Source: a bacterium
GTDB taxonomy: Bacteria > Calditrichota > Calditrichia > RBG-13-44-9
NCBI GenBank assembly: GCA_020350205.1
Contig: CP070707.1
Location: 1,573,709 to 1,637,708 of the forward strand
Length of the DNA stretch: 64,000 nt
Reading direction: 5' to 3'
Part shown: positions 19,101-34,070 of the stretch, one piece after another
Numbering within the stretch: the stretch's first letter is position 1
How the letters are laid out: the number at the start of each line of letters is the position of its first letter
Program-made: the position numbers and the translations under genes
The notes under the pieces: generated by a model
Databases searched by the model: none
The model's input: the letters and a program-made list of their open reading frames with translations, nothing else
What the model was told of the DNA's origin: nothing

Positions 19101-19135
19101 AAAAAAGGACTCTTCCGGAAAAAAGAAAAGTCCTT
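19101..19135 (-). terminator. Intrinsic terminator of the envelope operon
   Basis: On the minus strand AAGGACT and AGTCCTT pair around a 17-base loop and run directly into TTTTTT. It is 26 bases downstream of the FecR-domain gene and probably ends the whole 24.1-19.2 kb operon. Confidence 0.75.
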
Positions 19136-19160
19136 CTTATAATTTAAACACAAAGGTTGG

Positions 19161-19913
19161 TTATCGCTGCAGAAGCTCGTCTCGCTTTTTATTCCACTGC
19201 ACCCAATCTGACTTTCCGTCTTCCAGAACATCAAAATCGGATTTTTCGAACCTTCCATCAGGTCGGATGACCACCTGCTGCTGGGCTTTTACAATTTCCA
19301 ACCACTGGGCAATGGAAACATCCCGGGGGCCCTGAACGTCAGTGGGACCGGGAACATCGCGGGGAGGTCCAACAGGGCCTTTAGGCTGCTGCGGTACCAT
19401 ACCTGTCGATGTAGATTGTGGAGAGACTTCGACCTCACCGTCATACACCCGCAAGGTGGTCAGAGAATCTTCGGCCACATCCACCCGGTAGATGGTACCC
19501 CTTACCGCAATCACTGCAGTCGGTGACTTTACCGTTACGTAATCATCCTCAGAGAATATTTTTCGGATAGTGGCCCACAATTTCCCCACACTTAAAAATG
19601 AACTTGCTTTGATAGTTTCCTCAGTGACTTCAACTTCCTCAAGGGTATAGATTGAATTTTCATCAATACGGACTACATCCCCATTATGTAAAGTAATTTC
19701 ACAACGGGACTCTCTCTTGGTCTCAATTTTGTCTCCCGCAAAAACATCCATATTGAAGTGCGCCATGCGCAGCTCAGAGGATCCTTCCGGAATTACGAAC
19801 ACCCGGTTAAGGGGAAACGTCACTTTCCCCACCGGTTCACGGCTGGTGGAGGTGAATGCAACGAAGACCAAAAAAATTCCCACCAAGGTACCTCCCCGTG
19901 CTAACTTATGCAT
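19161..19913 (-). CDS. FecR-domain secreted protein
   Basis: About 250 residues. The ATG at 19913 is chosen because GGAGG sits five bases upstream and it opens a signal sequence ('MHKLARGGTLVGIFLVFVAF'); the frame is open 20 codons further. The centre is a FecR domain: 'FAGDKIETKRESRCEITLHNGDVVRIDENS' through 'VTVKSPTAVIAVRGTIYRV', about residues 50-150. A Pro/Gly-rich linker and a charged tail follow. Here the domain stands alone without a sigma factor or TonB receptor, as in many envelope proteins where it is thought to bind other surface factors. Last gene of the five-gene operon, behind the CsgG-like gene. Confidence 0.85.
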   Translation of the reverse strand: MHKLARGGTLVGIFLVFVAFTSTSREPVGKVTFPLNRVFVIPEGSSELRMAHFNMDVFAGDKIETKRESRCEITLHNGDVVRIDENSIYTLEEVEVTEETIKASSFLSVGKLWATIRKIFSEDDYVTVKSPTAVIAVRGTIYRVDVAEDSLTTLRVYDGEVEVSPQSTSTGMVPQQPKGPVGPPRDVPGPTDVQGPRDVSIAQWLEIVKAQQQVVIRPDGRFEKSDFDVLEDGKSDWVQWNKKRDELLQR

Positions 19914-19976
19914 ATAATCCTCCATTCCTCTTAGGTTGATTCGGTACTTATTTTTAGAGCCGTGTAAAACCACCCT

Positions 19977-20876
19977 TTATTTGGTCCGGACCAGATCTCC
20001 ACTGCTCAGACCGGTGCCGGAAACAATGATGGCTTTGCAGGCTTTTCCGTCCCCGATATCCTGAGCGACTTTAACCCTTCCAATGAGAGATTCTTCGCTT
20101 CCCAGAGACAATCCGGTATCAGGGTCAATAATTTCCTCGCCCTGCGAATAAACTGCAAATTCCATACCTGCTGTAACACCGCCGGCAGAACCTGGCTTCA
20201 TATATACCGTACCATCATCATTTACTTTAATAATCTTTCCCTGCCAGGGAATGTTTTCCATAGCTTTGGACACATAGTCAACACACTTATCGATCGATTT
20301 ACGGCTGGCCTTACCCACCAGCGTATTATCCCAGTGAGTGGGATTACCAAAATCAACATCTTCCACTCTGATTTTATCTAATCCGGTGTCACCTTCTTCA
20401 CCTACCGCGCTTTCTGCCAGTATAATTTCCGCCGTGGTGGTATTGACCAGTCGTATATCCACCACTGCTCTGGCCTCACGTTTGGTCAATTTACCCCCGA
20501 TTCCCAGTTTTCCGATAGAACCACCGATCCCGGATTTTTTTTCACCAAATTCTGAGATACTGCCCATCACCATCAATTCCACACCGAGCAGTTTACCTAC
20601 CTGGGCAGCACTTTGCGGGGTTACGGCACCGGACAATCCCAGCCCCTGCTCTTCAAGAATTTTCGAAAGTTCCTGTCGTTCGATGACCATGAAATTGCCA
20701 CTTTTTACCAGTTCGGTTACCAACATATCCGCCAGACCCGAACCGATATTATGACCCCAGCCGCTTCGGTCCTCGAAATCCACCACCGCAATTCTCTTTT
20801 TGAGACCTTTGAGATCATCTGCAGAAAGCTGAAAGGCCAAAAAAAGTACTATAATTAAAATGAGAGCATGCTTCAT
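19977..20876 (-). CDS. CsgG-family secretion or assembly protein
   Basis: A 299-residue protein with a signal sequence ('MKHALILIIVLFLAFQLSA') and a CsgG/HfaB domain: 'KRIAVVDFEDRSGWGHNIGSGLADMLVTELVKSGNF', 'VIERQELSKILEEQ', 'QVGKLLGVELMVMGSISEF' and 'VDIRLVNTTTAEIILAES'. The C-terminal region ('MKPGSAGGVTAGMEFAVYSQGE') resembles domains found after CsgG in related proteins. CsgG forms the outer-membrane channel for curli secretion. This protein lacks the lipobox Cys of true CsgG, and no curlin genes are near. Its start overlaps the upstream FlgT-like gene by four bases (ATGA), so the two are translationally coupled. Confidence 0.88.
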   Translation of the reverse strand: MKHALILIIVLFLAFQLSADDLKGLKKRIAVVDFEDRSGWGHNIGSGLADMLVTELVKSGNFMVIERQELSKILEEQGLGLSGAVTPQSAAQVGKLLGVELMVMGSISEFGEKKSGIGGSIGKLGIGGKLTKREARAVVDIRLVNTTTAEIILAESAVGEEGDTGLDKIRVEDVDFGNPTHWDNTLVGKASRKSIDKCVDYVSKAMENIPWQGKIIKVNDDGTVYMKPGSAGGVTAGMEFAVYSQGEEIIDPDTGLSLGSEESLIGRVKVAQDIGDGKACKAIIVSGTGLSSGDLVRTK

Positions 20877-22096
20877 GGGCTCGTTTCCTCCTGTAAGTTT
20901 TGCTTTCCTAACCTGGCGACGATGGTATTCTGAGTGACATTAACCACCTCAATGGTATAGGGCGAAAAATCCTTCATCACCAGTTCCTCAGCTACCTGAT
21001 TCGCAGTGCCGCGCACATCCAAATCGAACAGGGCGGTGTTCTGGGAAAAATCCCGCTGGTACACATTCTGTACACCCCGTACATAGTAAGGCAGCATATT
21101 TTTTATTTTGACAAGATCGGAATAACTTTCCACATTCATCAGGCGCAGATTGATCGTCGTTCCACTGTAAACGTCTTTTTGCCAGCGGTCCACGATTTTT
21201 CCGGAAAGATCTTCAGCCGCCAGTTTCGCCGCTTTTTTCAAGGCCTGGGTACCGCCGGAGAGCTGGTCAATATGCGCGGCAGCGGACTGCTGACCGGTGG
21301 TGGCGATAATTGTGCCATCATCTGCCCGTAGTACCCGCAGATTTATCGTCGCCTGGCATGAGATCATCCCCGCCTGTGCCAGGGCAGATGGGCCACTGGC
21401 AGCAACCTTGGACACCGCTTTGCCCACAATGAGTACTTCCGCACCACTTTGGGTTGCGATTGCCACGGCAGCCGCAGCATCACCTTCCAGAGTAGCCATG
21501 ACCGCATCTTTCTCAATCTTGCGCATCGAGGCTTCACGGTCGACAAACGGAAAACCCTTTTCTAACAGATCATTCATAATTTCATTTTCAGTGGTATTCA
21601 TGTCGATGGACCAGCTGTAATAATGGGTATCCATATTTTTTTCATCGACGATGACCATCACCCGGGGTTTCCCTTTCCGTGTAATCAGTAAACCAAGGGC
21701 AGCCAAGTTATCCTTCAGATTTCCTTTACGCACCAGGGCTTTAATGGTAACAACCAGCACATATTCACCCTCCTTGGCTTTCCCGAGTACTTCATATCGT
21801 TCCACATAACCCCGGGACTGGCTATAGATACGGTCCTCAATGGTCTGGTAATTTTGTACCAGAACATCCGATTGAATCATGGTTCCAATGACCTGTTCCA
21901 CTGCATTGCGCAGAGCACTGGCAACCGCATCATCCTCGGCTTTGGCCTGATCATTATTAATAATCGCTCCCCGGCCATTGGCAATGACCTCCTGGTAGGG
22001 CAGTTCCATCTGCCCGCCCGGAAAGTCCTGAGAAAAACTGAAGGAATTGAGAACGAGTAATAACCATACAGATATCATTATTTGGATAAATTTCAT
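20873..22096 (-). CDS. FlgT/LPP20-like secreted protein
   Basis: A 407-residue exported protein (signal 'MKFIQIMISVWLLLVLNSFSFS'). Residues about 35-130 form a FlgT-N/LPP20-type domain ('AEDDAVASALRNAVEQVIG', 'YVERYEVLGKAKEGEYVLVV'). A middle CsgG-like alpha/beta domain follows ('PRVMVIVDEKN', 'VAIATQSGAEVLIVGKAV', 'INLRVLRADDGTIIATTG'), then a C-terminal FlgT-like region. FlgT acts with the flagellar basal body in Vibrio, but there are no flagellar genes here, so a flagellum-independent envelope complex is more likely. It is coupled to the CsgG-like gene and has a paralogous N-terminal domain in the gene ending at 23314. Confidence 0.75.
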   Translation of the reverse strand: MKFIQIMISVWLLLVLNSFSFSQDFPGGQMELPYQEVIANGRGAIINNDQAKAEDDAVASALRNAVEQVIGTMIQSDVLVQNYQTIEDRIYSQSRGYVERYEVLGKAKEGEYVLVVTIKALVRKGNLKDNLAALGLLITRKGKPRVMVIVDEKNMDTHYYSWSIDMNTTENEIMNDLLEKGFPFVDREASMRKIEKDAVMATLEGDAAAAVAIATQSGAEVLIVGKAVSKVAASGPSALAQAGMISCQATINLRVLRADDGTIIATTGQQSAAAHIDQLSGGTQALKKAAKLAAEDLSGKIVDRWQKDVYSGTTINLRLMNVESYSDLVKIKNMLPYYVRGVQNVYQRDFSQNTALFDLDVRGTANQVAEELVMKDFSPYTIEVVNVTQNTIVARLGKQNLQEETSP

Positions 22097-22141
22097 AATT
22101 TTGCCTCTTATTTACATCTCCGTCTTGGTCGGCCGCTTCAA

Positions 22142-23296
22142 TTATAATTTAGATTTTAGATTTCGAATAATATTAAGCGCCTCGGTTCCGGAAACCGGAC
22201 CCAGAGGTTTGAATGTACCGTCATCAAAGCCCGGCATAATACCGCGACTGGAAACCGTCATGATGGCATTAAAAATAGGCGAGGTACCATTTACATCGGC
22301 AAATGGTGAGACCTGTCCGAAAAATTTGGTCTCTATACTGGAATCATTCCAGTACCGAATCAGAAATTTTTCGATGAGGCGGGCAAATTCCGCCCGATTG
22401 ACCTTTTCATCAGGATGAAAATTATTGTCGGGCATTAACTCCAACACCCCTTTATCCAGAGTTTCCTGGATAAATGATCTGGCCCAATGATCCTGCGGAA
22501 CATCCGGCGGTAGCTCTTCGCCGGTCTTTATAGCATCGGTTTTGCCCATTACCGGATCCGTCGGTGGCCGAAAACCGGCCTGGGTCGGTTTGGGAGCCTC
22601 ACGGAATACCTTTTGCAGGGGTAGTTCAAGGGCAAATAAAACTGCCACGTCAGAGCGGGTAATCTCTTTCTGAGAAGCAATTTTCTGCAGTTCCGGTCGT
22701 TGCCCGGCGATGGCAGATTTATAGGCCGCCAGATCTTTAATGGCCTTGTCCGCTTTCATATTGGTCTTATCAATTTCAAGAACCTTGGAATAAGAATCCT
22801 GTGCTTCATTGTACATATTGGCTTCTTTATAGATATCGCCCAGGGTCATATACCCCTCAACCGTAGCCCGTTTTTTATCAGGGACAGTTGACTTGGGAAC
22901 ATCTTCAATGGCATTTTTAGCTTCCTTAATGGCATCCTCATATTTTTCCTGCTTCGCTTTAACTTTAGCCCGCACGATCTTTGCCAGCACCCATTTTCCA
23001 TCCAGATCCAGTGCCTTGTTGGCCATTTCCATGGCGCCGTCCAAATTCCCCTCTTCAAGGTGGATCCAGGCCATTCCTTCGTAAGCCGGAGCGAATTTAG
23101 GATTCAGACTCTGCGCCTGTTGGAATTCGTACATGGCATCACTGTACTTCTCCTGATCATATAACGTTTTTCCACGGTCGTAGTGGATTTCCGGAGAATC
23201 AACCACGGATTGAGCCTTACGCGCTTTTTCACCGCCGCCACAACCAATGAGGTACAACAAAATAAAAGGCAGGATAATAAATATTTTGATCTTCAT
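22142..23296 (-). CDS. Lipoprotein with TPR repeats and S-layer homology domains
   Basis: A 384-residue lipoprotein: signal and lipobox 'LLYLIGCGG' (Cys about residue 19), then TPR units ('YDRGKTLYDQEKYSDAMYEF', 'APAYEGMAWIHLEEGNLDGA', and later ones) to about residue 200. Two SLH-type modules follow ('DVPQDHWARSFIQETLDKGV' and 'SPIFNAIMTVSSRGIMPGFD', with 'TFKPLGPVSGTEALNIIRNL'). SLH domains anchor proteins to cell-wall polymers. A lipid anchor plus SLH modules could bridge outer membrane and peptidoglycan. AGGAGA precedes the ATG. Second gene of the five-gene operon. Confidence 0.88.
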   Translation of the reverse strand: MKIKIFIILPFILLYLIGCGGGEKARKAQSVVDSPEIHYDRGKTLYDQEKYSDAMYEFQQAQSLNPKFAPAYEGMAWIHLEEGNLDGAMEMANKALDLDGKWVLAKIVRAKVKAKQEKYEDAIKEAKNAIEDVPKSTVPDKKRATVEGYMTLGDIYKEANMYNEAQDSYSKVLEIDKTNMKADKAIKDLAAYKSAIAGQRPELQKIASQKEITRSDVAVLFALELPLQKVFREAPKPTQAGFRPPTDPVMGKTDAIKTGEELPPDVPQDHWARSFIQETLDKGVLELMPDNNFHPDEKVNRAEFARLIEKFLIRYWNDSSIETKFFGQVSPFADVNGTSPIFNAIMTVSSRGIMPGFDDGTFKPLGPVSGTEALNIIRNLKSKL

Positions 23297-23313
23297 GGGA
23301 AATTCTCCTCAAT

Positions 23314-24120
23314 TTAGTCTAAAATAAGCATCACTTTACATTGTTGCAGATAATTCAAATTTTGTGCAGATGCACGGATCATGTTCGCTTCCTGATTGGA
23401 AATAACAATATCGGTATTATGAGTTCCTGTTACCTCAACCGCTTTAACAACCAGAGGATTATTGGTGACACGCTCATTGGCACGGGCCCGGTTGAGATCT
23501 TTTTCATATCCCACCACCCCGATTTGAAGCGCATAATCCCGACTCACAGATCCCGTTCCGTATACTTCCATACCATTCTGATCTACAATTTTGGGCGCCA
23601 GTGCGGGACGAAGTCCCAAACCCCGGGAATCTACAATCAAGCCGGTATATACTGCAGATGTGGGTTCACCGCCATAGCCGGGTGCTTGGGCACCCAAGGG
23701 AATATAGTCCGGCAATACGCTTCCGAAAATTCCAGACAGCGGAACTTCAACTTCCACTTCAACACTTCCATCACTTTTATAGCGGGTATCGATGACCCGG
23801 AAATTGCGAACGGCACCTTCCACCCGGTTATAAATGACATCGCTGACCACCATGTAATCCTGTACAGTGACCTCAGACGTAATATTCATACCCTGGACTC
23901 TTTCCAATAAATTACGCAAAGCCACTCGTTTAGCTGCTTCGATAGCACTCGCCCGTTGGGCTCCCACCGGTAAATTTGGGTTAGGTGCACCAATTCCGAC
24001 CTCACGGATGAGTTGATCGGTCCAATCTACCAGACCCCCGCTGGGCGTTTTTTCCAAATACTGTGAAAAACACAATACCGGAACAAAAATCAGAAGAATT
24101 ATTGACAGACATTTACGCAT
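23314..24120 (-). CDS. LPP20-domain secreted protein
   Basis: About 268 residues from the ATG at 24120, which has GGAGG six bases upstream; a GTG two codons earlier overlaps that site. A signal sequence ('MRKCLSIILLIFVPVLCFS') is followed by an LPP20-like domain: 'AIEAAKRVALRNLLERVQGM', 'VVSDVIYNRVEGAVRNFRVI', 'GSVEVEVEVPLSG'. The C-terminal half ('YTGLIVDSRGLGLRPALAPKIVDQNG') looks like a second alpha/beta domain. First gene of the operon with the SLH lipoprotein, FlgT-like, CsgG-like and FecR proteins. The LPP20-like domain parallels that of the FlgT-like protein. Precise function unknown. Confidence 0.78.
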   Translation of the reverse strand: MRKCLSIILLIFVPVLCFSQYLEKTPSGGLVDWTDQLIREVGIGAPNPNLPVGAQRASAIEAAKRVALRNLLERVQGMNITSEVTVQDYMVVSDVIYNRVEGAVRNFRVIDTRYKSDGSVEVEVEVPLSGIFGSVLPDYIPLGAQAPGYGGEPTSAVYTGLIVDSRGLGLRPALAPKIVDQNGMEVYGTGSVSRDYALQIGVVGYEKDLNRARANERVTNNPLVVKAVEVTGTHNTDIVISNQEANMIRASAQNLNYLQQCKVMLILD

Positions 24121-24223
24121 ATTCACCTCCGAAAAGTTATGTGATTTGATAAACTATATGATAGGTTTCTTGCAAGCTGTGATTATAATCACTTTGCATA
24201 TCTTTGGCAGGATCCTTTTCTTG

Positions 24224-24296
24224 AGCGGGTGACGGGACTCGAACCCGCGACCCTCAGCTTGGGAAGCTGATACTCTACCAACTGAGTTACACCCGC
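24224..24296 (-). tRNA. tRNA-Gly (anticodon CCC)
   Basis: A complete cloverleaf of 73 bases on the minus strand. The acceptor arms GCGGGTG and CACCCGC pair perfectly, and the discriminator base is T. The anticodon stem TCAGC/GCTGA encloses TTCCCAA, giving CCC at 24261-24263. The T-arm GCGGGTTCGAGTCCCGT is canonical. The 3' CCA is not encoded. Confidence 0.95.
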
Positions 24297-24435: not shown

Positions 24436-25809
24436 TTATCTGGCCAGTACATATTGCTCACGCCACTGATAAAATGAGACTTCGCCTCGTTTGGTGGAGT
24501 TGACCAGTTGGAATATGCCGAATCCATTGATGTCGACAAAATCAAACTCAACCCCGCCCTCCAGCTCAAGGTAATGCCAGATTTCATAGGGATTTTCATT
24601 GGGATTCACCGGATTTCTCTCATACTCATCCGGAGGCCCATAAATAACGTAGATGCGTCCCATGTCAGTAAACCAACCCTCAACACCTCCCTGGCTGAAC
24701 TTCTGATTGGATTCATCAACTCTTTGGTAATATAAATCTTTCCAGCCCTCATTTCCCTTTTCTCTCTCAGCCCAAAACCGCGCCAGAAACTGTTTCTTAC
24801 TCTCCAGCGAATTGAGTACTTTATAAACCTTTTTTTCCGAGTCAGAAGCAAGGTATGCAGCCTGTTCAAACATTTTATCGACTTCTTTTTCATTCAACAC
24901 CGCAAAGTGCTCCATAAACTTGCTTTCCAGCTCATCCTCCGGTTTAACCACCACGATATTGGGATTATGAACGTAAAAATTCCTGCGTCGATAGACCGAT
25001 ACATTCTCCACCGAATCGACTGCTGCGAAAATAAAGGTATAAAGACCTGTCTCAAGTTTACTCACATTGAACATACCACGCTCCACCAGAGATTCATTGG
25101 AATGAGTTCTCACGTAGTCCTTCTTCAGTCGAATATTTCCATCCCCATCCGCTATCGCAGCCTGAATTTTAAGATCAGCCTGACCCGGTATATTCTGGGT
25201 CTTGATGTTATAAATTTCAAGATAATAGTATAGCAGGGGCCGTTCTATCCCGAATATTCCAGAAGGATTCGGGATTACTTTCATGGTATTCTTGTAAAAA
25301 GGGTGCTCCTGATCCTCAAACCCGGTGATGATGTTAGAGCAAATTTGGAGGTCACTCATCGCAATTTTCCCACTGCTGAAGGGGCTGACCGAAATTTCTT
25401 CTTTCACCGTGTCAGATGGACTGGACATACGCAGAAAATATTTACCACGGGGAATCACCAGTTTCACGACCCCCATTTGACCGGTACTGATATCTTCATT
25501 AGCGGTTGACAATTCATCCTTGTTAAATTTAACGGGAATCTTATCATGGGCCAGGATTGAATCATTTTCTATATTCAGTAATGAAAAATCGAGCTCACAT
25601 GATGCCTCGTATCCGGCGGCGGATGGTTGAAATTCGATATCGCTGGGGTATACCACATAATAGACCTCCAGATAGACTGAACTGGTGTCATAGCGAAAGC
25701 GTCCATAATCCATTGAAAAATTAACTTCCTTGGTTGCCAGAAGTGAGGAAAAGGAAAAAAGCAGCGATAAAAGTAGGATTGGGGTAAAAGGTAAACGATG
25801 GGATTTCAT
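24436..25809 (-). CDS. GWxTD domain-containing exported protein
   Basis: About 457 residues from the ATG at 25809, which has GGGAGAG upstream and opens a signal peptide ('MKSHRLPFTPILLLSLLFSFSS'); the frame is open 13 codons further. The C-terminal part carries the family motif 'GWFTDMGRIYVIYGPPDEYE', preceded by 'FLARFWAEREKGNEGWKDLYYQR' and followed by 'YEIWHYLELEGGVEFDFVD'. The N-terminal part has beta-rich segments ('YFLRMSSPSDTVKEE'). The domain is common in FCB and acidobacterial genomes and has no established function. It stands as its own unit between a terminator and a long intergenic region. Confidence 0.9.
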   Translation of the reverse strand: MKSHRLPFTPILLLSLLFSFSSLLATKEVNFSMDYGRFRYDTSSVYLEVYYVVYPSDIEFQPSAAGYEASCELDFSLLNIENDSILAHDKIPVKFNKDELSTANEDISTGQMGVVKLVIPRGKYFLRMSSPSDTVKEEISVSPFSSGKIAMSDLQICSNIITGFEDQEHPFYKNTMKVIPNPSGIFGIERPLLYYYLEIYNIKTQNIPGQADLKIQAAIADGDGNIRLKKDYVRTHSNESLVERGMFNVSKLETGLYTFIFAAVDSVENVSVYRRRNFYVHNPNIVVVKPEDELESKFMEHFAVLNEKEVDKMFEQAAYLASDSEKKVYKVLNSLESKKQFLARFWAEREKGNEGWKDLYYQRVDESNQKFSQGGVEGWFTDMGRIYVIYGPPDEYERNPVNPNENPYEIWHYLELEGGVEFDFVDINGFGIFQLVNSTKRGEVSFYQWREQYVLAR

Positions 25810-26056
25810 AATATTCTCTCCCGGAAATGGTAATGAACTTTGGTACATGTATTAATTAAAAAAGTGTAATCACACATTATACTGAATAGGCTCTTGCCAG
25901 GTTGCGTGATATTATTCTTTTTTCCGGATTTGACGATTAATAAGTGAAATTTTTTTCCAGCGCATGAATCTAAAAGTATTCCTTAAAATAATATCATAAC
26001 TTGCCCAGTGTGTTAATAAACGATAAAAAGATCAATTATGTTAATATTGCGGTAAA

Positions 26057-26154
26057 TGTCATGCTGAATTCAGTTCAGCATCTCCGCTTTTATCAAAATG
26101 AGACCCTAAAATGCCTGTCATGGTGCGCTGTCCAGACAGGAATTCAGGGTGACA
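26057..26154. repeat. Short repeat element with inverted ends (TGTCAnnCTGAATTC)
   Basis: The element begins TGTCATGCTGAATTC and ends with GAATTCAGGGTGACA, whose reverse complement differs at only two central bases. The interior has further short inverted segments (TTCAGCATCTCCGC). It resembles small non-autonomous palindromic repeats seen between genes in FCB-group genomes. It is related in design to, but differs in sequence from, the copies at 36336, 52318 and 53735. Confidence 0.6.
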
Positions 26155-26265
26155 CAATTATACCATATAGTAGATATATATGAAATACCAATTCATATTC
26201 AACTAATTATCACAACGGCGATAAGTCATTTTAATACAATTCTACTATCCTGTCAATTTTGCCCT

Positions 26266-26313
26266 AAATAAAAAGGCCGGCATGGTGAAGAAAAATCCAC
26301 CCTGCCGACCTTT
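26266..26313 (-). terminator. Intrinsic terminator of the PorV-like gene
   Basis: On the minus strand a long stem (AAAGG, CGGCA and GGTG segments pairing with CACC, TGCCG and CCTTT, two mismatches) is followed by TTTTTATTT. It lies 25 bases beyond the stop at 26338 and probably ends the TonB receptor/surface protein/PorV transcript. Confidence 0.85.
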
Positions 26314-26337
26314 ATTCAGATAGAAATCAAGACCGCA

Positions 26338-27378
26338 TTAGAATCCGAAAGTTAATGCAAATAGGTTCTCGCCGTCAAAATATTGCGAATCTCGATAAGT
26401 ATAATCAAATCCAAAATCGACCTGATTAAACTGATAGTGGAGACCTACACCCAAAGTAAAGCGATTGAGCTGCTCTTCGGTTTCAACATCATTCATCAGC
26501 AGGTAACCACCCCTTAGTGCAATCAGATCTCTAAACATGTATTCCAGCCCAAATTTGAATTGGTCGTTTCCTACATTATAGTTCTCGAAGACACCAGCAA
26601 ATATTAAATTATTATCTTCTGCTACTGTTCTCCGATAGCTCACTCCCAATTCAAATTTTGCCGGTAGTTCATCGGAAGAGGGAAGTCTGTTGACGAACTG
26701 AGTTTCTGCTTGACCTGCAATAGGAACCTCAGTCGTAAAGGCACTTCCGCCGTATGATAATTCAGTTCCGATATTCTTAACCACCACGCCAAAATCAAAA
26801 CCCGGCAGACTACCTAGATCACGATATTGTAAACCGATATCAAATGCGAACGCGGTAGCACTAGCGCGTGGAATACCTTCATAGATTAAATTACCGGTAA
26901 GACCCACCTGAATACGGTCCGTCAGCAGCCTGGAATATGTTAAACCAGTTGTAACGAAGGTTGGTGAGAATTGCCTTCCGGAAGAGCCATCAGGATCGAA
27001 AACGGTAGTTTCCGGAATGTCTCCGAAATCGAAACTTTTTACAGATATACCAATGACTCCGACTTTCCCAGCCCGGAATCCCAATCCCAGGAAGTTAACC
27101 TGAATATCACTAAATACCTTCATGGTCGACAGGACACCTGTGGCTGTATTCTTCATGGATGACAGTCCTGCGGGATTCCAGTAGATAGCATCCACTCCTC
27201 TGGTCGTCGCGATGTTTGAACCACCCATGGCCAGGTCTCTCGCACCTACCGGAACAAGTAGCTGGGTTCCTGCAGCTGTTCCCACACGTGCTGCATCACC
27301 GGCGTACAGGGAAGACGTGACGACGAAGAGACTCAATATCACCCAGATGGTAAAATGAAAAATTTTTCTATTCGCCAT
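26338..27378 (-). CDS. PorV/PorQ-family outer-membrane protein
   Basis: About 346 residues from the ATG at 27378 (GGAG six bases upstream; an ATG five codons earlier has no such site). After a signal peptide, the mature start 'GTAAGTQLLVPVGARDLAMGGSNIATTRGVDAIYWNPAGLS' is the hallmark of PorV/UPF0164 barrel proteins of the FadL superfamily. It ends 'GENLFALTFGF', an aromatic-terminated strand. In T9SS, PorV carries cargo to the attachment complex. Here it follows the T9SS-type surface protein and TonB receptor and may serve that cargo. It could also be one of several paralogues in the genome. Confidence 0.85.
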   Translation of the reverse strand: MANRKIFHFTIWVILSLFVVTSSLYAGDAARVGTAAGTQLLVPVGARDLAMGGSNIATTRGVDAIYWNPAGLSSMKNTATGVLSTMKVFSDIQVNFLGLGFRAGKVGVIGISVKSFDFGDIPETTVFDPDGSSGRQFSPTFVTTGLTYSRLLTDRIQVGLTGNLIYEGIPRASATAFAFDIGLQYRDLGSLPGFDFGVVVKNIGTELSYGGSAFTTEVPIAGQAETQFVNRLPSSDELPAKFELGVSYRRTVAEDNNLIFAGVFENYNVGNDQFKFGLEYMFRDLIALRGGYLLMNDVETEEQLNRFTLGVGLHYQFNQVDFGFDYTYRDSQYFDGENLFALTFGF

Positions 27379-27423
27379 TATTAACTCCTTCATATTCTTT
27401 TAATACTTCATCACTTAATCTCA

Positions 27424-30400
27424 TTAATAGTATTTAATTATTTGCGCCGATTGCACAACAAACAGTTTTAGAATTTTTTCAGCACCCAAATCTGGCATGT
27501 CAATATGAGCGATATAAACACCACTGGCAACCGGAAGATCTGCTTCATTTCGCAGATCCCAACGCAGGAACTGGGAGTTATCCGTCTTCTCCAGTTTTCT
27601 AACCAGAGCACCACCTAAATCAAAAATGCGGATAATCGTCTCCGAAGCATATGGATTACCCTCAGAAGAGTTTCTGGGTGGTAGATGATAGAATGTCACA
27701 AAGCGAGTAAAACGATCCGGTTCCTGGGGATTGAAAGCATAATACGGATTTGGATAAACAGTGATTCTATCCACATCAGCTAATGCATCATCCTTGCTCA
27801 TAAGAACCTGCTTTGTGGAAAAAGCAAATACATCATTTACAGTGTTTGGTTTGGTACTACTAAACCTGAAAATAGTACCTTCTTCGGGAATTACTGCATC
27901 CACATTGGCCGGGAAAGTGGGATCAGCAACCGAACCACCATTCCAGTTGACAAGGACCGTGCGAGCCATTATTTCCTCACCTTCACCATGATAGTTACCC
28001 GAAAGACCGGCTGTAACGAATGCATCATAACCAGCGGTACCGGCAGAATTATCTTCTGGTTGTACCCAGTAGACCCAGTCCATATAAGGATCATTATCCC
28101 CACCGGATACAGCATGGTCACTCGCGTTGATGTTGTATACTGTATCACCTGCTGACGCATCACCCAAATCATTCAATACAAAGGGTATCAAACGAAAGTC
28201 GTCACTATCATCGTCAGGCGTGTTGCTGCCAATATTCCAGAGCTCAAACGGTACCCGATAAGTCTCTTCGTTCTCATACCACCAGTTTCCGTATCCACCG
28301 GCAGCTGTGAAGCGCATTTCAAAATCCCATGGAACAACGAGGTCCCATCCGGATCGCATTGAACGCTCGAGGAATCCTTCTCCATCATCACTCGTGTATA
28401 GTCCGCGATGTTCACCCGTACCACCGGTAGCAAGACCCCAGGTACTTCCATTGGTTTGTTGCCGGGCACCATCCGGCCGGTCGGTTCCCTCCGGATAGAG
28501 ATCATTAAACAGGAACGGGAATCCATTATCATTAAACGCAAAGCAACCAATTTCCGGCGGATCAATAGGTCCGGCGGCATTCGCCACGCACTCGAACTTC
28601 TTCCAATCGTTCGGCGGACCCGCAACCTTGATATTCACACCATCGGCAATGCTGCCACCACGGTCCGTCAGTTGAGCGACTTGACGCTGGTTCGTGAGTA
28701 ATACCGACGGGGTACCCGAGGTTCGCCGCAGATTCCAGAGGATTTCGCCCACCGGAGCAATGGTGGAATCAGTATTCTCGGTAAAGAATATTTCATAATC
28801 TTGGGCATTCGAGGCCGCAGGATCTACAATCGTGATAGAGACTTGACCGTCACTGCTCCCTTCTGCATGGTCAACAGCGATTTCACCTCCCGGCTGACCC
28901 TCGTATCGAACTCCAGGAGGAGGACTCTGTGTCCTAACTGTAAGAATCAGCAGAGAAGATTCCAGAGCTTCATCTTCAATCAACTGAGGATCCCCATTAT
29001 AATTATACGCTGTGACTGCATAATAATAAGTGTTCCCCGGGAAAAGGGCACGATTGTTTATATAATCTTTATCCACTACAAGATATCTTTCTATACCCAG
29101 ATCATTTCCAAATTGTACCGGAACCCGGATAACTTCTCCATATTTGGGATCAAATACATTACCGTAAATGGTTGTAACACCGTTATTGGCAATATCGAAT
29201 GTGGCAATCCGGACAGCTGAAGATTTACCCGCGGAGGAAGACGGCAATTGATATACATTATATCCTTCGAATTCATAACCGGCAATCACCGTATTCTCTA
29301 TAGCATTTTTAGAGGCAGTATCCCATCCCCAGTTCAGCACTATACCGGCTTCATCAGCAAACGCTTGCACATTCGGTGAAGACGGTGGTTTGGGAATGCT
29401 CTGAAACAGATCGTTATAAACGGTCTGAGCAATCTCATCGGTTAATTTTAAATCTGCAACTGAGTTCAGATAGGAGTCAGAAATACCTCCCAACATTGCC
29501 ACTACCACTTCCTGTGTGTCTCCGGGTTGCATGACGAAGGGACCTGAATTGAGGGACATTCGGCGGTCAGCAGGTGCAAAATTGGCACCCTGTCCGTCGA
29601 TATCACCTGTTCCCGCAACGGGATCACCGTTCAGTGGCCAGAGTGTAGCTTTTCCTGTGGCTCGATGTGTGAAAGGTGTGGGATTAATGACATCGTCAAG
29701 AGTAATATATCCACGCAGCAGGTTGTACCACATTAAGGTACCTTCATAATCCTGCAGAGTGGGATCATCCCACTGGGTATTCCCGGCAGAAAAGTAACCG
29801 AAAGAGGTCATGGGAAGATTGATCAGTCCCGGTCCGACTACTTTCAGGTTAAAAATGCCGTAATCTTCGGCATCATCAACTCCATTTAAATTTTTGTCCT
29901 GTCCGGCAATACCTTCAACCAGCGGACCCTGGAAAAAGTCATAACCCATCGCAGGCGGAGCAATGCCAAAGACGTCAAATTCACCGTCCGTGGCCTCTCC
30001 GTTATAAGCAAATCCCAAACCCACAACGGAATCACAACCAACCACATCATTGGTGTAAGTTCCGACATCAGGATCGCACCACTGTGCAACATACATTGAA
30101 TCAAAGACATCATTTGACTTATTGATGAAGGTGTATTTCTTAAAAATAATCTGTCCTAGGCGGGCATTGGGCTGATTATAGCCCCACATTGTAACCTGTA
30201 ACTCAACGCCCATTGGATCAGAACCATACAAGTAGGCAGTTTGTGACGCATCAAGATCATTATTCACATACCACAACACCTGATCGGCACTGGCTATTCC
30301 CGGGTGATCACCCGCTGTGGTTGCAGCACCATCCGCATCCAGCACCGGGTCGTAAATTCCGTTATCATTTACATCCACATAGGGAGCTCCAAGTTCAACC

Positions 30401-30954
30401 GGCCAGTTAATCCAATCTGCTTTATACTGCGCGATCAGCTCATCGGTTTGAGCGTCGGTCACCGCATCCGGATCCACCTGGAAGATCTCAGCCGCCTCCT
30501 GTTTTACCTGTCCGGCGGCGAGTGTTCGCCAATCGGAGCGGATCTTGTAAATTGCTGCCAGATTGGCGTCGCTTGCTGTGCCATCCTCTTGGATATGTCC
30601 GGCAACCGTTCCCACATTATAGGTTACACCCCCCACATGAATAGTGGGTGTACCCGCACGGTCAATAATACCACCCCAAACCAGGCCGTCAGTAAATACG
30701 ACGCCACCAGTGGCTCGTGGGTAAATTCCACCGGAATTTCCCTGCGGGTCGTTTCCGGAGCGTCCACCCAGAATTTGCCAGTAGGACCAATTATTGATAT
30801 TAGACAGGGCCCTTGTAGTCCTACCTTGAGCGGGCTTGGCAAAAGAAATCAGTCCCGGATCATTAAAAGGAACCTCTGTATACCCCTCCGTGACCAGGAA
30901 AAGAAACAACCCAGCCGCAAGGAGAGATAAAAATATTTTTTTATTCCGCATCAT
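27424..30954 (-). CDS. Large surface protein with T9SS-type C-terminal domain
   Basis: A 1176-residue exported protein. Signal sequence 'KKIFLSLLAAGLFLFLVTEG'. Asp/Gly/Asn-rich calcium-binding-like stretches occur ('VDVNDNGIYDPVLDADG', 'DKNLNGVDDAEDYG'). A fibronectin-like segment ('PPSSPNVQAFADEAGIVLNW' and 'FPGNTYYYAVTAYNYNGDP') precedes a C-terminal Ig-like sorting domain ('VYPNPYYAFNPQEPDRF' to 'VASGVYIAHID'). No enzyme motif was seen. It lies 38 bases downstream of the TonB receptor and 45 bases upstream of the PorV-like gene, an arrangement repeated in many FCB genomes. It is most likely surface-exposed; its ligand or substrate is unknown. Confidence 0.78.
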   Translation of the reverse strand: MMRNKKIFLSLLAAGLFLFLVTEGYTEVPFNDPGLISFAKPAQGRTTRALSNINNWSYWQILGGRSGNDPQGNSGGIYPRATGGVVFTDGLVWGGIIDRAGTPTIHVGGVTYNVGTVAGHIQEDGTASDANLAAIYKIRSDWRTLAAGQVKQEAAEIFQVDPDAVTDAQTDELIAQYKADWINWPVELGAPYVDVNDNGIYDPVLDADGAATTAGDHPGIASADQVLWYVNNDLDASQTAYLYGSDPMGVELQVTMWGYNQPNARLGQIIFKKYTFINKSNDVFDSMYVAQWCDPDVGTYTNDVVGCDSVVGLGFAYNGEATDGEFDVFGIAPPAMGYDFFQGPLVEGIAGQDKNLNGVDDAEDYGIFNLKVVGPGLINLPMTSFGYFSAGNTQWDDPTLQDYEGTLMWYNLLRGYITLDDVINPTPFTHRATGKATLWPLNGDPVAGTGDIDGQGANFAPADRRMSLNSGPFVMQPGDTQEVVVAMLGGISDSYLNSVADLKLTDEIAQTVYNDLFQSIPKPPSSPNVQAFADEAGIVLNWGWDTASKNAIENTVIAGYEFEGYNVYQLPSSSAGKSSAVRIATFDIANNGVTTIYGNVFDPKYGEVIRVPVQFGNDLGIERYLVVDKDYINNRALFPGNTYYYAVTAYNYNGDPQLIEDEALESSLLILTVRTQSPPPGVRYEGQPGGEIAVDHAEGSSDGQVSITIVDPAASNAQDYEIFFTENTDSTIAPVGEILWNLRRTSGTPSVLLTNQRQVAQLTDRGGSIADGVNIKVAGPPNDWKKFECVANAAGPIDPPEIGCFAFNDNGFPFLFNDLYPEGTDRPDGARQQTNGSTWGLATGGTGEHRGLYTSDDGEGFLERSMRSGWDLVVPWDFEMRFTAAGGYGNWWYENEETYRVPFELWNIGSNTPDDDSDDFRLIPFVLNDLGDASAGDTVYNINASDHAVSGGDNDPYMDWVYWVQPEDNSAGTAGYDAFVTAGLSGNYHGEGEEIMARTVLVNWNGGSVADPTFPANVDAVIPEEGTIFRFSSTKPNTVNDVFAFSTKQVLMSKDDALADVDRITVYPNPYYAFNPQEPDRFTRFVTFYHLPPRNSSEGNPYASETIIRIFDLGGALVRKLEKTDNSQFLRWDLRNEADLPVASGVYIAHIDMPDLGAEKILKLFVVQSAQIIKYY

Positions 30955-30992
30955 TTGTCACTCCTCATTTTTTACTTCACTAATAGCATAGT

Positions 30993-33900
30993 TTAAAAGT
31001 TCAACTTTAATCCTAAGAAGATCTGTCGCGGATTACCCCACAGTTCATTTCCGTAAGCTTCTCCCAGTCTTCTTCCAAGATGGGCAGCATAAACCCCACC
31101 ATTTTCCAAGTTAATGGCTCGATACATAGACGTATAAATCTCTCCCGCATTGGTAATACCATATTGTTCACCTGCAACTTGCTGAAGTCCATCAACTACA
31201 GGTTGATAACGGGCAGGATCGCTTAAGAATCCATCATCAGAGGCGCTACCGGTTAGCTCATAAACATTGAGTACATTTTTAGCATTCAGGACATTAAGTA
31301 CACGAGCATACATTGTTATATCTAGATTTTTGAAAACGGTGAAGGTTTTATCAAGCCGGATATCCAGGTTGGAGATCCATGGCGTACGGGAAGAACCTAG
31401 AGGTTCTAGAGCTTGACGGGACCGTGTATCAGTCATATAATCTACACCGGCCACATAAGGATCAACCTGTCCACCAGGAGGTGCATAAACCTTGGTGAAA
31501 GGATGCCCGCTGGAGAATGTGAACAGAAAATTCGCACCCAATCTTTCCAGGATAGGTCCACCATCATTTTTCCCAAACCGATAATCAAGTACAATTGATC
31601 CAGTATGTGTCTGAGAATAATCCAATGGTTGAATAATCGTAGGACGCTGAGTGTCCCGATATACGGCACCATGATAGGCGGTGTTATTTGATCCGGTGCC
31701 CTTTGCATTGGTCAGGGTGTAATTGATTTGCGACTGAACACGTGCAGTGCGTCTTAGAGTCAAGCGAAATTCCAATCCTTTGGTCGTGGCAAAGTCACCA
31801 TTAACAAATCTCTCATAATCCTGAACTTGTGCAGTGGGAAGCACGGTCTCCTTATCGACTTGAATCTGTCCCTTAATATTTTTATAAAATCCGGCAATGT
31901 CGATTGCGGCATAATTTGAAAGCTGCTGCCGGAATCCAATTTCATACGATGTGGTTCGCTCAGGTTCCAATCCGAAACCGATAGGATTTTGATAATAAAA
32001 ACCACCTCTGATCTGACGGGACATGGTCCAGTTACCGAAATAGACTTGGTTCAGCGATGGCATCTGTATAAACTTTCCGTATTGAGAATAGAACACCGTT
32101 TTTTCAGTAATCGGGAATGATAGGCCTAAGCGCGGGCTCACTTGAATAAACGGATCAAGCTCGACCCATTCAGACTGAAGTACCAGACCACTGTTGGCAT
32201 CAATTCTGGGATCAGCAGGATCTCTTAGTGTCTTATCATCACTATCAAAATAATCCATTCTTAATCCGGCATTGATTATTAGATCATTAAACTCAATCTT
32301 ATCCTGCAGATAGGCAGAGAAAAAAAGTGGTTTACGTGGTGCATCCACATAAACACCATTACCATAATCTATGGTGTTACTGGTTGAATTTCCATAGATA
32401 TCATATCCGTAACTTGCTACATTACCCTGTAATACCCAAGTATCCTCCGGTACATTTTGAATACTGCCATATGTTGTCCCGTATCCCGCAGCTGCACCAT
32501 AGGCAGGATCTGCAGTATAAAGCATTACAGAGGGATTAATGGCAAAACTTCTCACTGTATAGGAACGGACATCTACGCCGGCTCTGGCTTCATGATGTCG
32601 ACCTATCTGACTTACCCAGTTTACGGCTCCACCAAGGTAAGATTGTTGTAGATGAGTATACCGATCAACCGGATGCCCATCGCTGTTCATAAGAAATCCC
32701 ATCATGTTATACTCATATTCTTCTCTCCAGGCATCTCTGAAAGTTACATCTCCACCGGTATGTTGAGCTACCTTGGTACTGTCGAACCAGGATTGCCAGT
32801 CATTACCAAAATAGTCATCCTCTCTGTCATAATCATAATTAAAATAACTGAAAGTTAAATCGGCATATGAAGTAGGTGAGACAATATAGGTGGCTTTTGT
32901 ATTAAACAGCAAAGATGTAGTCACATCTGTTATAAGCCTGTTATTGAACAGATTCATGTGAGCCGTTTCATAGGGACCATTATTATGATAAACGCCGGGA
33001 TAGGTGTGGTCATTAATCGAGTAGGTACCTGAAAAACGGACCTTTATTGGACTATAGTCAAATAATAATGAACCGTTCAGGGAGTATTGATTGGTCTTAT
33101 TCTGAGGTGTATAACCATCCGGATACCAGACTGTCAGCAGTGTATCGTTAGGTCTATTGGAAGCAATATCAGGAATATTTTCGAAGGCATAGCCTGTGCT
33201 GAAACGCACCTGATCATCACCCTGGTAGGTATTCTCGGCAGCCAGGAAGAAACGGATTTTGTTTGACAAAATGGGCCCGCTCATCGTACCAACCAAAACG
33301 TGATGTTGATAAGAATAGGCTCCCAGAAATTTTTTCTCTTGATTAACAAACTTGTCCGTTTGCGCATCAACAGAAAAATGATAATCGGATCCGCCGGTTT
33401 TCATTTCTGTACGAATAATACCTGAATTGGCACCACCAAATTCCGCATTATAGCCACCCGCCAATACCTGAAATTCCTCAATGGCCTCCTGAATAACGTA
33501 AGATGCATTCCTGTTTGTAAGGATATTCATAGTAGAGGCACCATCCAGGTAGTAACCGGTTTCCTCCAGACGGCCACCACGAATGTGGACATTGCCATCC
33601 TGGACAACAACACTGTTCTGCAACTGGATCAGGTTGTTGAAACCGCGTACCGGCATGGCTTCAATTTCCTGCGATGTGACCAGCGAAATGCTCTGGGTGA
33701 CATTCTTTTCCACCAGAGGTCTTTCGGCAGTGATCACAATGGCTTCTTCCAGTTCCAAGGTGGTCGGTTCCATATCAAAATTGAGCTCGGTGGTAATGCT
33801 GGCTGAAACACGAATTCCTTCAACCAGAACATCCTTGTATCCAATGTAGTTTGCCCGGATACTATAGGTACTGACGGGAATATTCAGGATTACATAATAT

Positions 33901-34070
33901 CCGTCAATATCAGTCGAGCTACCCAGTGTGGTCCCCTCCAGGATCACATTAACACCCGGAAGCGGTTCTCCGGTTGACTTATCGACAACCACACCAGCTA
34001 TTTTACCCGAAGATTGGGCAAAAGCAATCACTGGAATGAGCAATAAGACCAGACATAATTTCTTAAACAT
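30993..34070 (-). CDS. TonB-dependent outer-membrane receptor, SusC-like
   Basis: A 1025-residue protein. Signal sequence (residues 1-18). A carboxypeptidase-regulatory-like beta-sandwich follows ('GKIAGVVVDKSTGEPLPGVN', 'DIDGYYVILNIPVSTYSIR', about 22-105), then a plug domain ('ITAERPLVEKNVTQSISLVT', 'QNSVVVQDGNVHIRGGR', about 115-230), then a long TonB-dependent barrel with aromatic strands to the end ('PRQIFLGLKLNF'). No TonB box was confidently identified. It imports a bulky substrate, or contributes to export or attachment of its neighbours. No sugar or metal marker identifies the substrate. The start has GGAGG upstream, and a putative leader element lies just before it. Confidence 0.92.
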   Translation of the reverse strand: MFKKLCLVLLLIPVIAFAQSSGKIAGVVVDKSTGEPLPGVNVILEGTTLGSSTDIDGYYVILNIPVSTYSIRANYIGYKDVLVEGIRVSASITTELNFDMEPTTLELEEAIVITAERPLVEKNVTQSISLVTSQEIEAMPVRGFNNLIQLQNSVVVQDGNVHIRGGRLEETGYYLDGASTMNILTNRNASYVIQEAIEEFQVLAGGYNAEFGGANSGIIRTEMKTGGSDYHFSVDAQTDKFVNQEKKFLGAYSYQHHVLVGTMSGPILSNKIRFFLAAENTYQGDDQVRFSTGYAFENIPDIASNRPNDTLLTVWYPDGYTPQNKTNQYSLNGSLLFDYSPIKVRFSGTYSINDHTYPGVYHNNGPYETAHMNLFNNRLITDVTTSLLFNTKATYIVSPTSYADLTFSYFNYDYDREDDYFGNDWQSWFDSTKVAQHTGGDVTFRDAWREEYEYNMMGFLMNSDGHPVDRYTHLQQSYLGGAVNWVSQIGRHHEARAGVDVRSYTVRSFAINPSVMLYTADPAYGAAAGYGTTYGSIQNVPEDTWVLQGNVASYGYDIYGNSTSNTIDYGNGVYVDAPRKPLFFSAYLQDKIEFNDLIINAGLRMDYFDSDDKTLRDPADPRIDANSGLVLQSEWVELDPFIQVSPRLGLSFPITEKTVFYSQYGKFIQMPSLNQVYFGNWTMSRQIRGGFYYQNPIGFGLEPERTTSYEIGFRQQLSNYAAIDIAGFYKNIKGQIQVDKETVLPTAQVQDYERFVNGDFATTKGLEFRLTLRRTARVQSQINYTLTNAKGTGSNNTAYHGAVYRDTQRPTIIQPLDYSQTHTGSIVLDYRFGKNDGGPILERLGANFLFTFSSGHPFTKVYAPPGGQVDPYVAGVDYMTDTRSRQALEPLGSSRTPWISNLDIRLDKTFTVFKNLDITMYARVLNVLNAKNVLNVYELTGSASDDGFLSDPARYQPVVDGLQQVAGEQYGITNAGEIYTSMYRAINLENGGVYAAHLGRRLGEAYGNELWGNPRQIFLGLKLNF

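Follow-up and report, generated by a model that had tools for sequence, protein, structure and literature searches.

Gene content and protein homology of the operon

The 64,000-nucleotide stretch of a Calditrichota genome analyzed here (GCA_020350205.1, contig CP070707.1, positions 1,573,709 to 1,637,708; hereafter the window) carries an operon of five open reading frames on the minus strand at 19161-24120, encoding in order LPP20, TPR/SLH, LipL46-like, CsgG-like and FecR-domain proteins. The host genome is a single contig of 4.06 Mb and is 92% complete. An original prediction, made from the DNA sequence alone, had described five genes lying head to tail on one strand, a four-base overlap between the FlgT-like (here LipL46-like) and CsgG-like genes, a terminator after the last gene, and export signals on all five products. 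These features are all borne out, the export signals insofar as the N-termini agree by eye. The locus comprises:

24182..24210, minus strand: candidate promoter-like site 5' of gene 1, weakly supported (CTGCCA-17-TATAAT)
23314..24120, minus strand: gene 1, P0005, exported LPP20/FlgP-like protein, core gene (Pfam LPP20; Tp0624 and FlgP profile matches)
22142..23296, minus strand: gene 2, P0004, TPR-repeat lipoprotein with a pair of SLH domains plus half of a third SLH motif (Pfam; lipobox)
20873..22096, minus strand: gene 3, P0003, exported LipL46-like protein, core gene (NCBIfam LipL46; FlgT_N in relatives)
20873..20876, minus strand: four-base ATGA overlap of genes 3 and 4 (P0003/P0002)
19977..20876, minus strand: gene 4, P0002, accessory protein with a CsgG domain and, at its C-terminus, a FlgT_C/TsaP-like domain (Pfam CsgG; FlgT fold match)
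19161..19913, minus strand: gene 5, P0001, exported FecR-domain protein resembling Leptospira LipL45/Lsa33, core gene (Pfam FecR 2e-12)
19102..19138, minus strand: terminator-like hairpin and T-run 3' of gene 5 (-17.2 kcal/mol, z -4.3)

The genes are closely spaced, with 17 bases between P0005 and P0004, 45 between P0004 and P0003, -4 between P0003 and P0002, and approximately 63 between P0002 and P0001. The open frame of P0001 extends to 19973, and the ATG at 19913 is probably the start rather than the GTG at 19973 because GGAGG precedes it. The hairpin is not among the sites listed by a terminator consensus scan, and promoter-like sites of the CTGCCA-17-TATAAT type are no more numerous than expected by chance. 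Upstream of the operon lies a tRNA-Gly (24223-24296), and the neighboring upstream gene carries its own terminator. Ratios of nonsynonymous to synonymous polymorphism (pN/pS) of 0.16-0.33 against relatives of the same genus and family demonstrate that the operon genes are under purifying selection.

P0005 matches Pfam LPP20 at an E-value of 1e-5, barely above the cut-off, and the domain is found in 16/16 of its orthologues. The profile of the P0005 family aligns full length with domains 1-2 of Treponema pallidum Tp0624 (PDB 5JIR; 4e-10, positions 33-275); the OmpA-like third domain of Tp0624 was not found in the P0005 family. The same profile matches FlgP of the Vibrio LPHT ring (8z5n_2, E-value 1e-4) and other FlgP structures, in an alignment that is gap-free across the insert separating the SHS2 helix from the second strand. 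The N-terminal domain pair of Tp0624 has been noted in nearly 50 bacterial proteins, and the consulted part of its published description draws no link to LipL46 or FecR partners (PMC5104382). P0004 combines TPR repeats with two SLH domains (4e-21), and its lipobox Cys is invariant across 17 orthologues, making it the only one of the five proteins with a conserved lipoprotein signal. Its residues 211-221 hold a conserved ITRSDVAVLF that resembles the terminal part of a degenerate third SLH repeat.

P0003 comprises a FlgT_N/LPP20-like domain, a TolB_N/LpoB-like domain and a C-terminal domain. It matches NCBIfam LipL46 (NF033164) at 6e-23, where its 81 bits lie below the curated cut-off of 400 bits, and by sequence it is a distant relative only of LipL46. 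Pfam FlgT_N is matched by 14/20 members of the LipL46-like family (best 8e-11) and recurs in a whole-genome search of the carriers. PDB sequence searches with P0003 alone, with its Calditrichota profile and with the FecR protein gave no useful match. P0001 in turn resembles NCBIfam Lsa33 (1e-15) and LipL45 (2e-14), again below curated cut-offs, and the scores of both window proteins are far lower than those cut-offs. LipL46 and LipL45 are leptospiral lipoproteins described as surface antigens; like Tp0624, they are relatives without a settled function.

P0002 matches Pfam CsgG at 1e-40, and FlgT_M and FlgT_C domains are detected in members of its alignment. FlgT tops the PDB fold matches for both modeled proteins. 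The AlphaFold2 model of P0002, built from a 14-sequence alignment (predicted local distance difference test score, pLDDT, 78; predicted template modeling score, pTM, 0.73), best matches FlgT 8z5n_0 (5e-14, template modeling score TMq 0.65), then FlgT 3w1e (3e-13), with CsgG far behind (3e-8, TMq 0.38). For P0003 (pLDDT 77), the best match is FlgT at 3.5e-9.

A conserved core within and beyond Calditrichota

The LipL46-like protein is clearly matched in 18/36 Calditrichota genomes, and a nineteenth (G027) has a weak, truncated match only. These carriers span five of the six families, with none among the 12 genomes of the sixth. At all 18 loci, as far as the contigs reach, the five genes keep their order on one strand, with the CsgG-like slot empty at three, and the flanking genes vary from family to family. 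The LipL46-like tree groups Calditrichota in one clade (support 100/98), the pattern expected of an old gene passed on mainly by descent.

In the window, the upstream neighbors (24436-34070, minus strand) encode a GWxTD-domain protein, a PorV/PorQ-family protein, a 1176-aa protein whose C-terminus weakly resembles PorZ, and a SusC/RagA-like protein. This neighborhood resembles those of type IX secretion or SusC-type systems, and lies beside the operon mainly in Calditrichota family f1.

A scan of genome contigs yielded 36 loci, including ones from WOR-3, Nitrospinota, several Deltaproteobacteria, Myxococcales, Armatimonadetes and Phycisphaerae. With profiles of the five families, one locus (L064) was found to hold all five genes and another (L068) four, with no FecR gene within ~1 kb up to the end of the stretch examined. 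The Nitrospinota locus has a rearranged gene set, and that of WOR-3 retains the LipL46-like and FecR genes. An LPP20 – LipL46-like – FecR triad recurs (L072, L076, L082), and is present in unclassified bacteria, Nitrospinota and Deltaproteobacteria. In the phylum that contains the Myxococcales, the LipL46-like gene occurs in 89/174 genomes; of 40 loci sampled there, 34 have a same-strand LPP20 gene upstream and a FecR gene downstream, three have FecR only, and three have neither. One of the 34 (L106) has CsgG-like genes in the same slot as the Calditrichota operon. At seven loci (L075, L077-L080, L084 and L110), LPP20 and LipL46-like sequences form a single open frame, which argues that the two proteins work together. 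The conserved core is LPP20 – LipL46-like – FecR. The envelope gene set of the original prediction stands, its order being kept far beyond close relatives, as the prediction itself had required, in five Calditrichota families and in other phyla. Its composition also appears undescribed, as had been proposed: open-access papers on LPP20 with FecR, on GNA1162 with CsgG and on CsgG in Calditrichota were searched, and none that describes the cassette was found.

Several loci vary this arrangement. In Deltaproteobacteria, a GNA1162-like lipoprotein gene follows the LipL46-like gene (L067, L074, L081); at L067 and L074 the FecR gene comes directly after it. The GNA1162-like fold belongs to the CsgG/LpoB superfamily, and the position flanked by LipL46-like and FecR is therefore occupied by a similar domain. 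A CDP-alcohol phosphatidyltransferase gene lies further on. The Nitrospinota cassette includes a 742-aa protein with an NHL beta-propeller fused to a domain of the CsgG/FlgO type (L069:5704-7932), and elsewhere the cassette has beside it a second LipL46-like gene, whose product is much extended at the C-terminus (L070:1914-3689).

Loss of the CsgG-domain gene and the channel question

The original prediction placed the CsgG-like protein at the center of an export or surface-assembly machine. Its gene is missing at 3/18 Calditrichota loci (L042, L046, L047), where FecR begins 32-48 bases after the LipL46-like gene. No P0002 orthologue was found elsewhere in these three genomes, where the best E-values are 9e-21 to 6e-34 versus at most 1e-150 for orthologues. 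In the LipL46-like tree, the three loci fall on two separate branches whose sister branches retain the gene, so that two losses are indicated. Conversely, genome G032 has the CsgG-like orthologue alone, without the operon. Being lost from operons and solitary in G032, the CsgG-like gene is therefore not the center of the cassette.

An export channel of the CsgG type in the outer membrane, fitted with accessory parts, would account for the strong Pfam match, for the sequence matches of P0002 to CsgG structures (4e-10, positions 42-160), and for the one long glycine-rich hairpin in its model. However, the features expected of such a channel are largely missing. A lipobox is present in 0/14 P0002 orthologues, whereas the true CsgG of G033 has FVSC; the second membrane hairpin is not modeled, and the corresponding region is acidic and hydrophilic, with a mean hydropathy of about -0.5 to -0.65 in Calditrichota versus +0.29 in the G033 CsgG. 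A WOR-3 relative is without most of both hairpin regions. P0002 further differs from the CsgG of curli (type VIII secretion) in its extra FlgT_C-like tail, and its model fits FlgT better than CsgG. Together with the two losses that left the remaining cassette in place, these observations make a channel very unlikely, and the proposal of a machine built around it is not supported. Judging by the model, P0002 may still contact the membrane through the remaining glycine-rich hairpin.

The prediction had correctly noted the absence of curlin and CsgF: searches of the window's genome were negative for both, and a curli system was rejected on these grounds. Within the phylum, G033 alone has them, at another locus. 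This sister-genus genome (1/36 Calditrichota genomes) has a complete curli-like locus, in which a lipobox CsgG and CsgF are accompanied by four or more proteins with curlin repeats (L094:1659-12839), and its true curli CsgG is a gene separate from the cassette. The window's genome has six CsgG-domain matches in total, including a second CsgG-domain gene tightly flanked by two same-strand genes (L091:7773-8450; G000:C1:683802).

Flagellar independence and a candidate periplasmic scaffold

The closest known counterparts of the cassette are the Vibrio H-ring (FlgO, FlgP, FlgT) and the Campylobacter FlgP basal disk, whose proteins the cited papers describe in a flagellar context only (PMC6375700, PMC12222027). 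The systems share a FlgP-like LPP20 protein that aligns without gaps through the insert, FlgT_N-, FlgT_M- and FlgT_C-like domains, export, and gene clustering. This homology would favor a gene set for a flagellar H-ring or basal disk, but the distribution of FlhB argues otherwise. FlhB is absent from the window's genome and its whole family, and no flagellar genes lie near the cassette, in agreement with the original prediction; across Calditrichota, FlhB is commoner in genomes without the cassette (14/18) than in carriers (about half), and 10/18 carriers outside the phylum lack it. Some of these genomes are incomplete drafts, which makes single absences of FlhB weak evidence but not the pattern. 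A flagellar role was rejected on this distribution; it is largely refuted for family f1, and scarcely tenable overall. The cassette also differs from the H-ring in composition: its FlgT-like N, M and C domains are recognizable but split across two genes, it has FecR and TPR/SLH partners, and its FlgP-like protein is extended by a Tp0624-D2 domain and lacks a conserved lipobox.

The analysis establishes the gene order, the homologies, the fusion of two genes, the loss of the CsgG part and independence from flagella. The best account of these findings, to which we give even odds, is that the operon specifies a scaffold in the periplasm that needs no flagellum, lies against the inner side of the outer membrane and probably takes the form of a ring or disk. 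Its core would consist of three exported proteins: the LPP20/FlgP-like protein, the LipL46-like protein with FlgT N- and middle-type domains, and the FecR-domain protein. To these, Calditrichota would add the outer-membrane TPR/SLH lipoprotein and the CsgG-domain protein with its FlgT_C-type tail, the latter together with the LipL46-like protein resembling a FlgT divided over two genes. SHS2-fold parts with the FlgP/FlgT-type insert are proposed to oligomerize, with TolB_N/LpoB-type domains stacking on the SHS2 oligomer. In lineages that have it, the lipoprotein would hold the assembly between the outer membrane and the cell wall, its SLH domains reaching the wall. Such a scaffold could support an envelope machine or connect membrane to wall. 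Its ring formation, location and function are inferred.

Several observations weigh against this scaffold. The structure models cover P0002 and P0003 as single chains, and the P0003 model places its domains poorly (pTM 0.48; TMq 0.25 to FlgT). P0003 itself falls below the Pfam FlgT_N threshold, which only its relatives reach. The insert of FlgP-type SHS2 proteins correlates with ring formation (PMC12222027), but in the P0003 model it is a helix rather than a FlgP-style beta-hairpin, and the gap-free match of P0005 to FlgP is thus suggestive of a ring. The recurrent neighbors annotated, comprising only housekeeping, PgsA-like and AI-2E-type genes, name no partner machine. No match to CsaB above the cut-off was found in Calditrichota, and canonical anchoring of an S-layer to pyruvylated polymers was rejected for this reason. 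Proteins such as LptE, LpoB and Lpp20 have SHS2 or TolB_N/LpoB folds without forming rings, and the fold alone is therefore no proof of a ring.

Two further readings draw on the same domains. The C-terminal domain of P0002 matches TsaP (3e-5), the protein associated with type IV pilus secretins, raising the prospect of a collar around the secretin of a type IV pilus or type II secretion system. Secretins are found in 32/36 Calditrichota genomes, the window's included, and Myxococcota are often piliated. However, secretins are as common in genomes without the cassette, none was found in the carrier G020 (an incomplete assembly), and no secretin gene occurs among the recurrent neighbors annotated. 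Co-occurrence with secretins is uninformative. TsaP also has an N-terminal LysM, whereas P0002 has none and carries a CsgG/FlgT_M-type domain instead, and the TsaP-like part is confined to an accessory gene, so that a secretin collar appears unlikely. We rate no higher a regulator of wall synthesis or a tether between outer membrane and wall, akin to LpoB or SLH-OmpM and without a ring. LpoB-like matches in P0002, P0003 and 11/12 members of the CsgG-like alignment, and the lipoprotein with its SLH domains, are consistent with such a role. Yet the LpoB matches of the window proteins (20.2 and 21.2 bits) are below the cut-off of 22.3, no wall-synthesis genes are linked, CsaB is absent, and the SLH protein lies outside the widespread core.

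The cassette illustrates that annotation of a CsgG domain need not mean a secretion channel. It also makes a group of named but unexplained proteins (Lpp20/FlgP, LipL46, LipL45, Tp0624, FlgT domains and CsgG-like proteins) parts of one conserved gene set, which is testable in culturable, non-pathogenic myxobacteria. If the proposed scaffold forms a ring without a flagellum, it would bear directly on the origin of the accessory rings of flagellar motors. More tentatively, the core genes could encode an ancient flagellum-independent outer-membrane ring complex, present in several phyla and sharing its origin with the FlgP/FlgT H-ring, with LipL46, LipL45 and Tp0624 as relatives of its parts. If so, an envelope structure of this kind would have been the source from which the flagellar H-ring was recruited.

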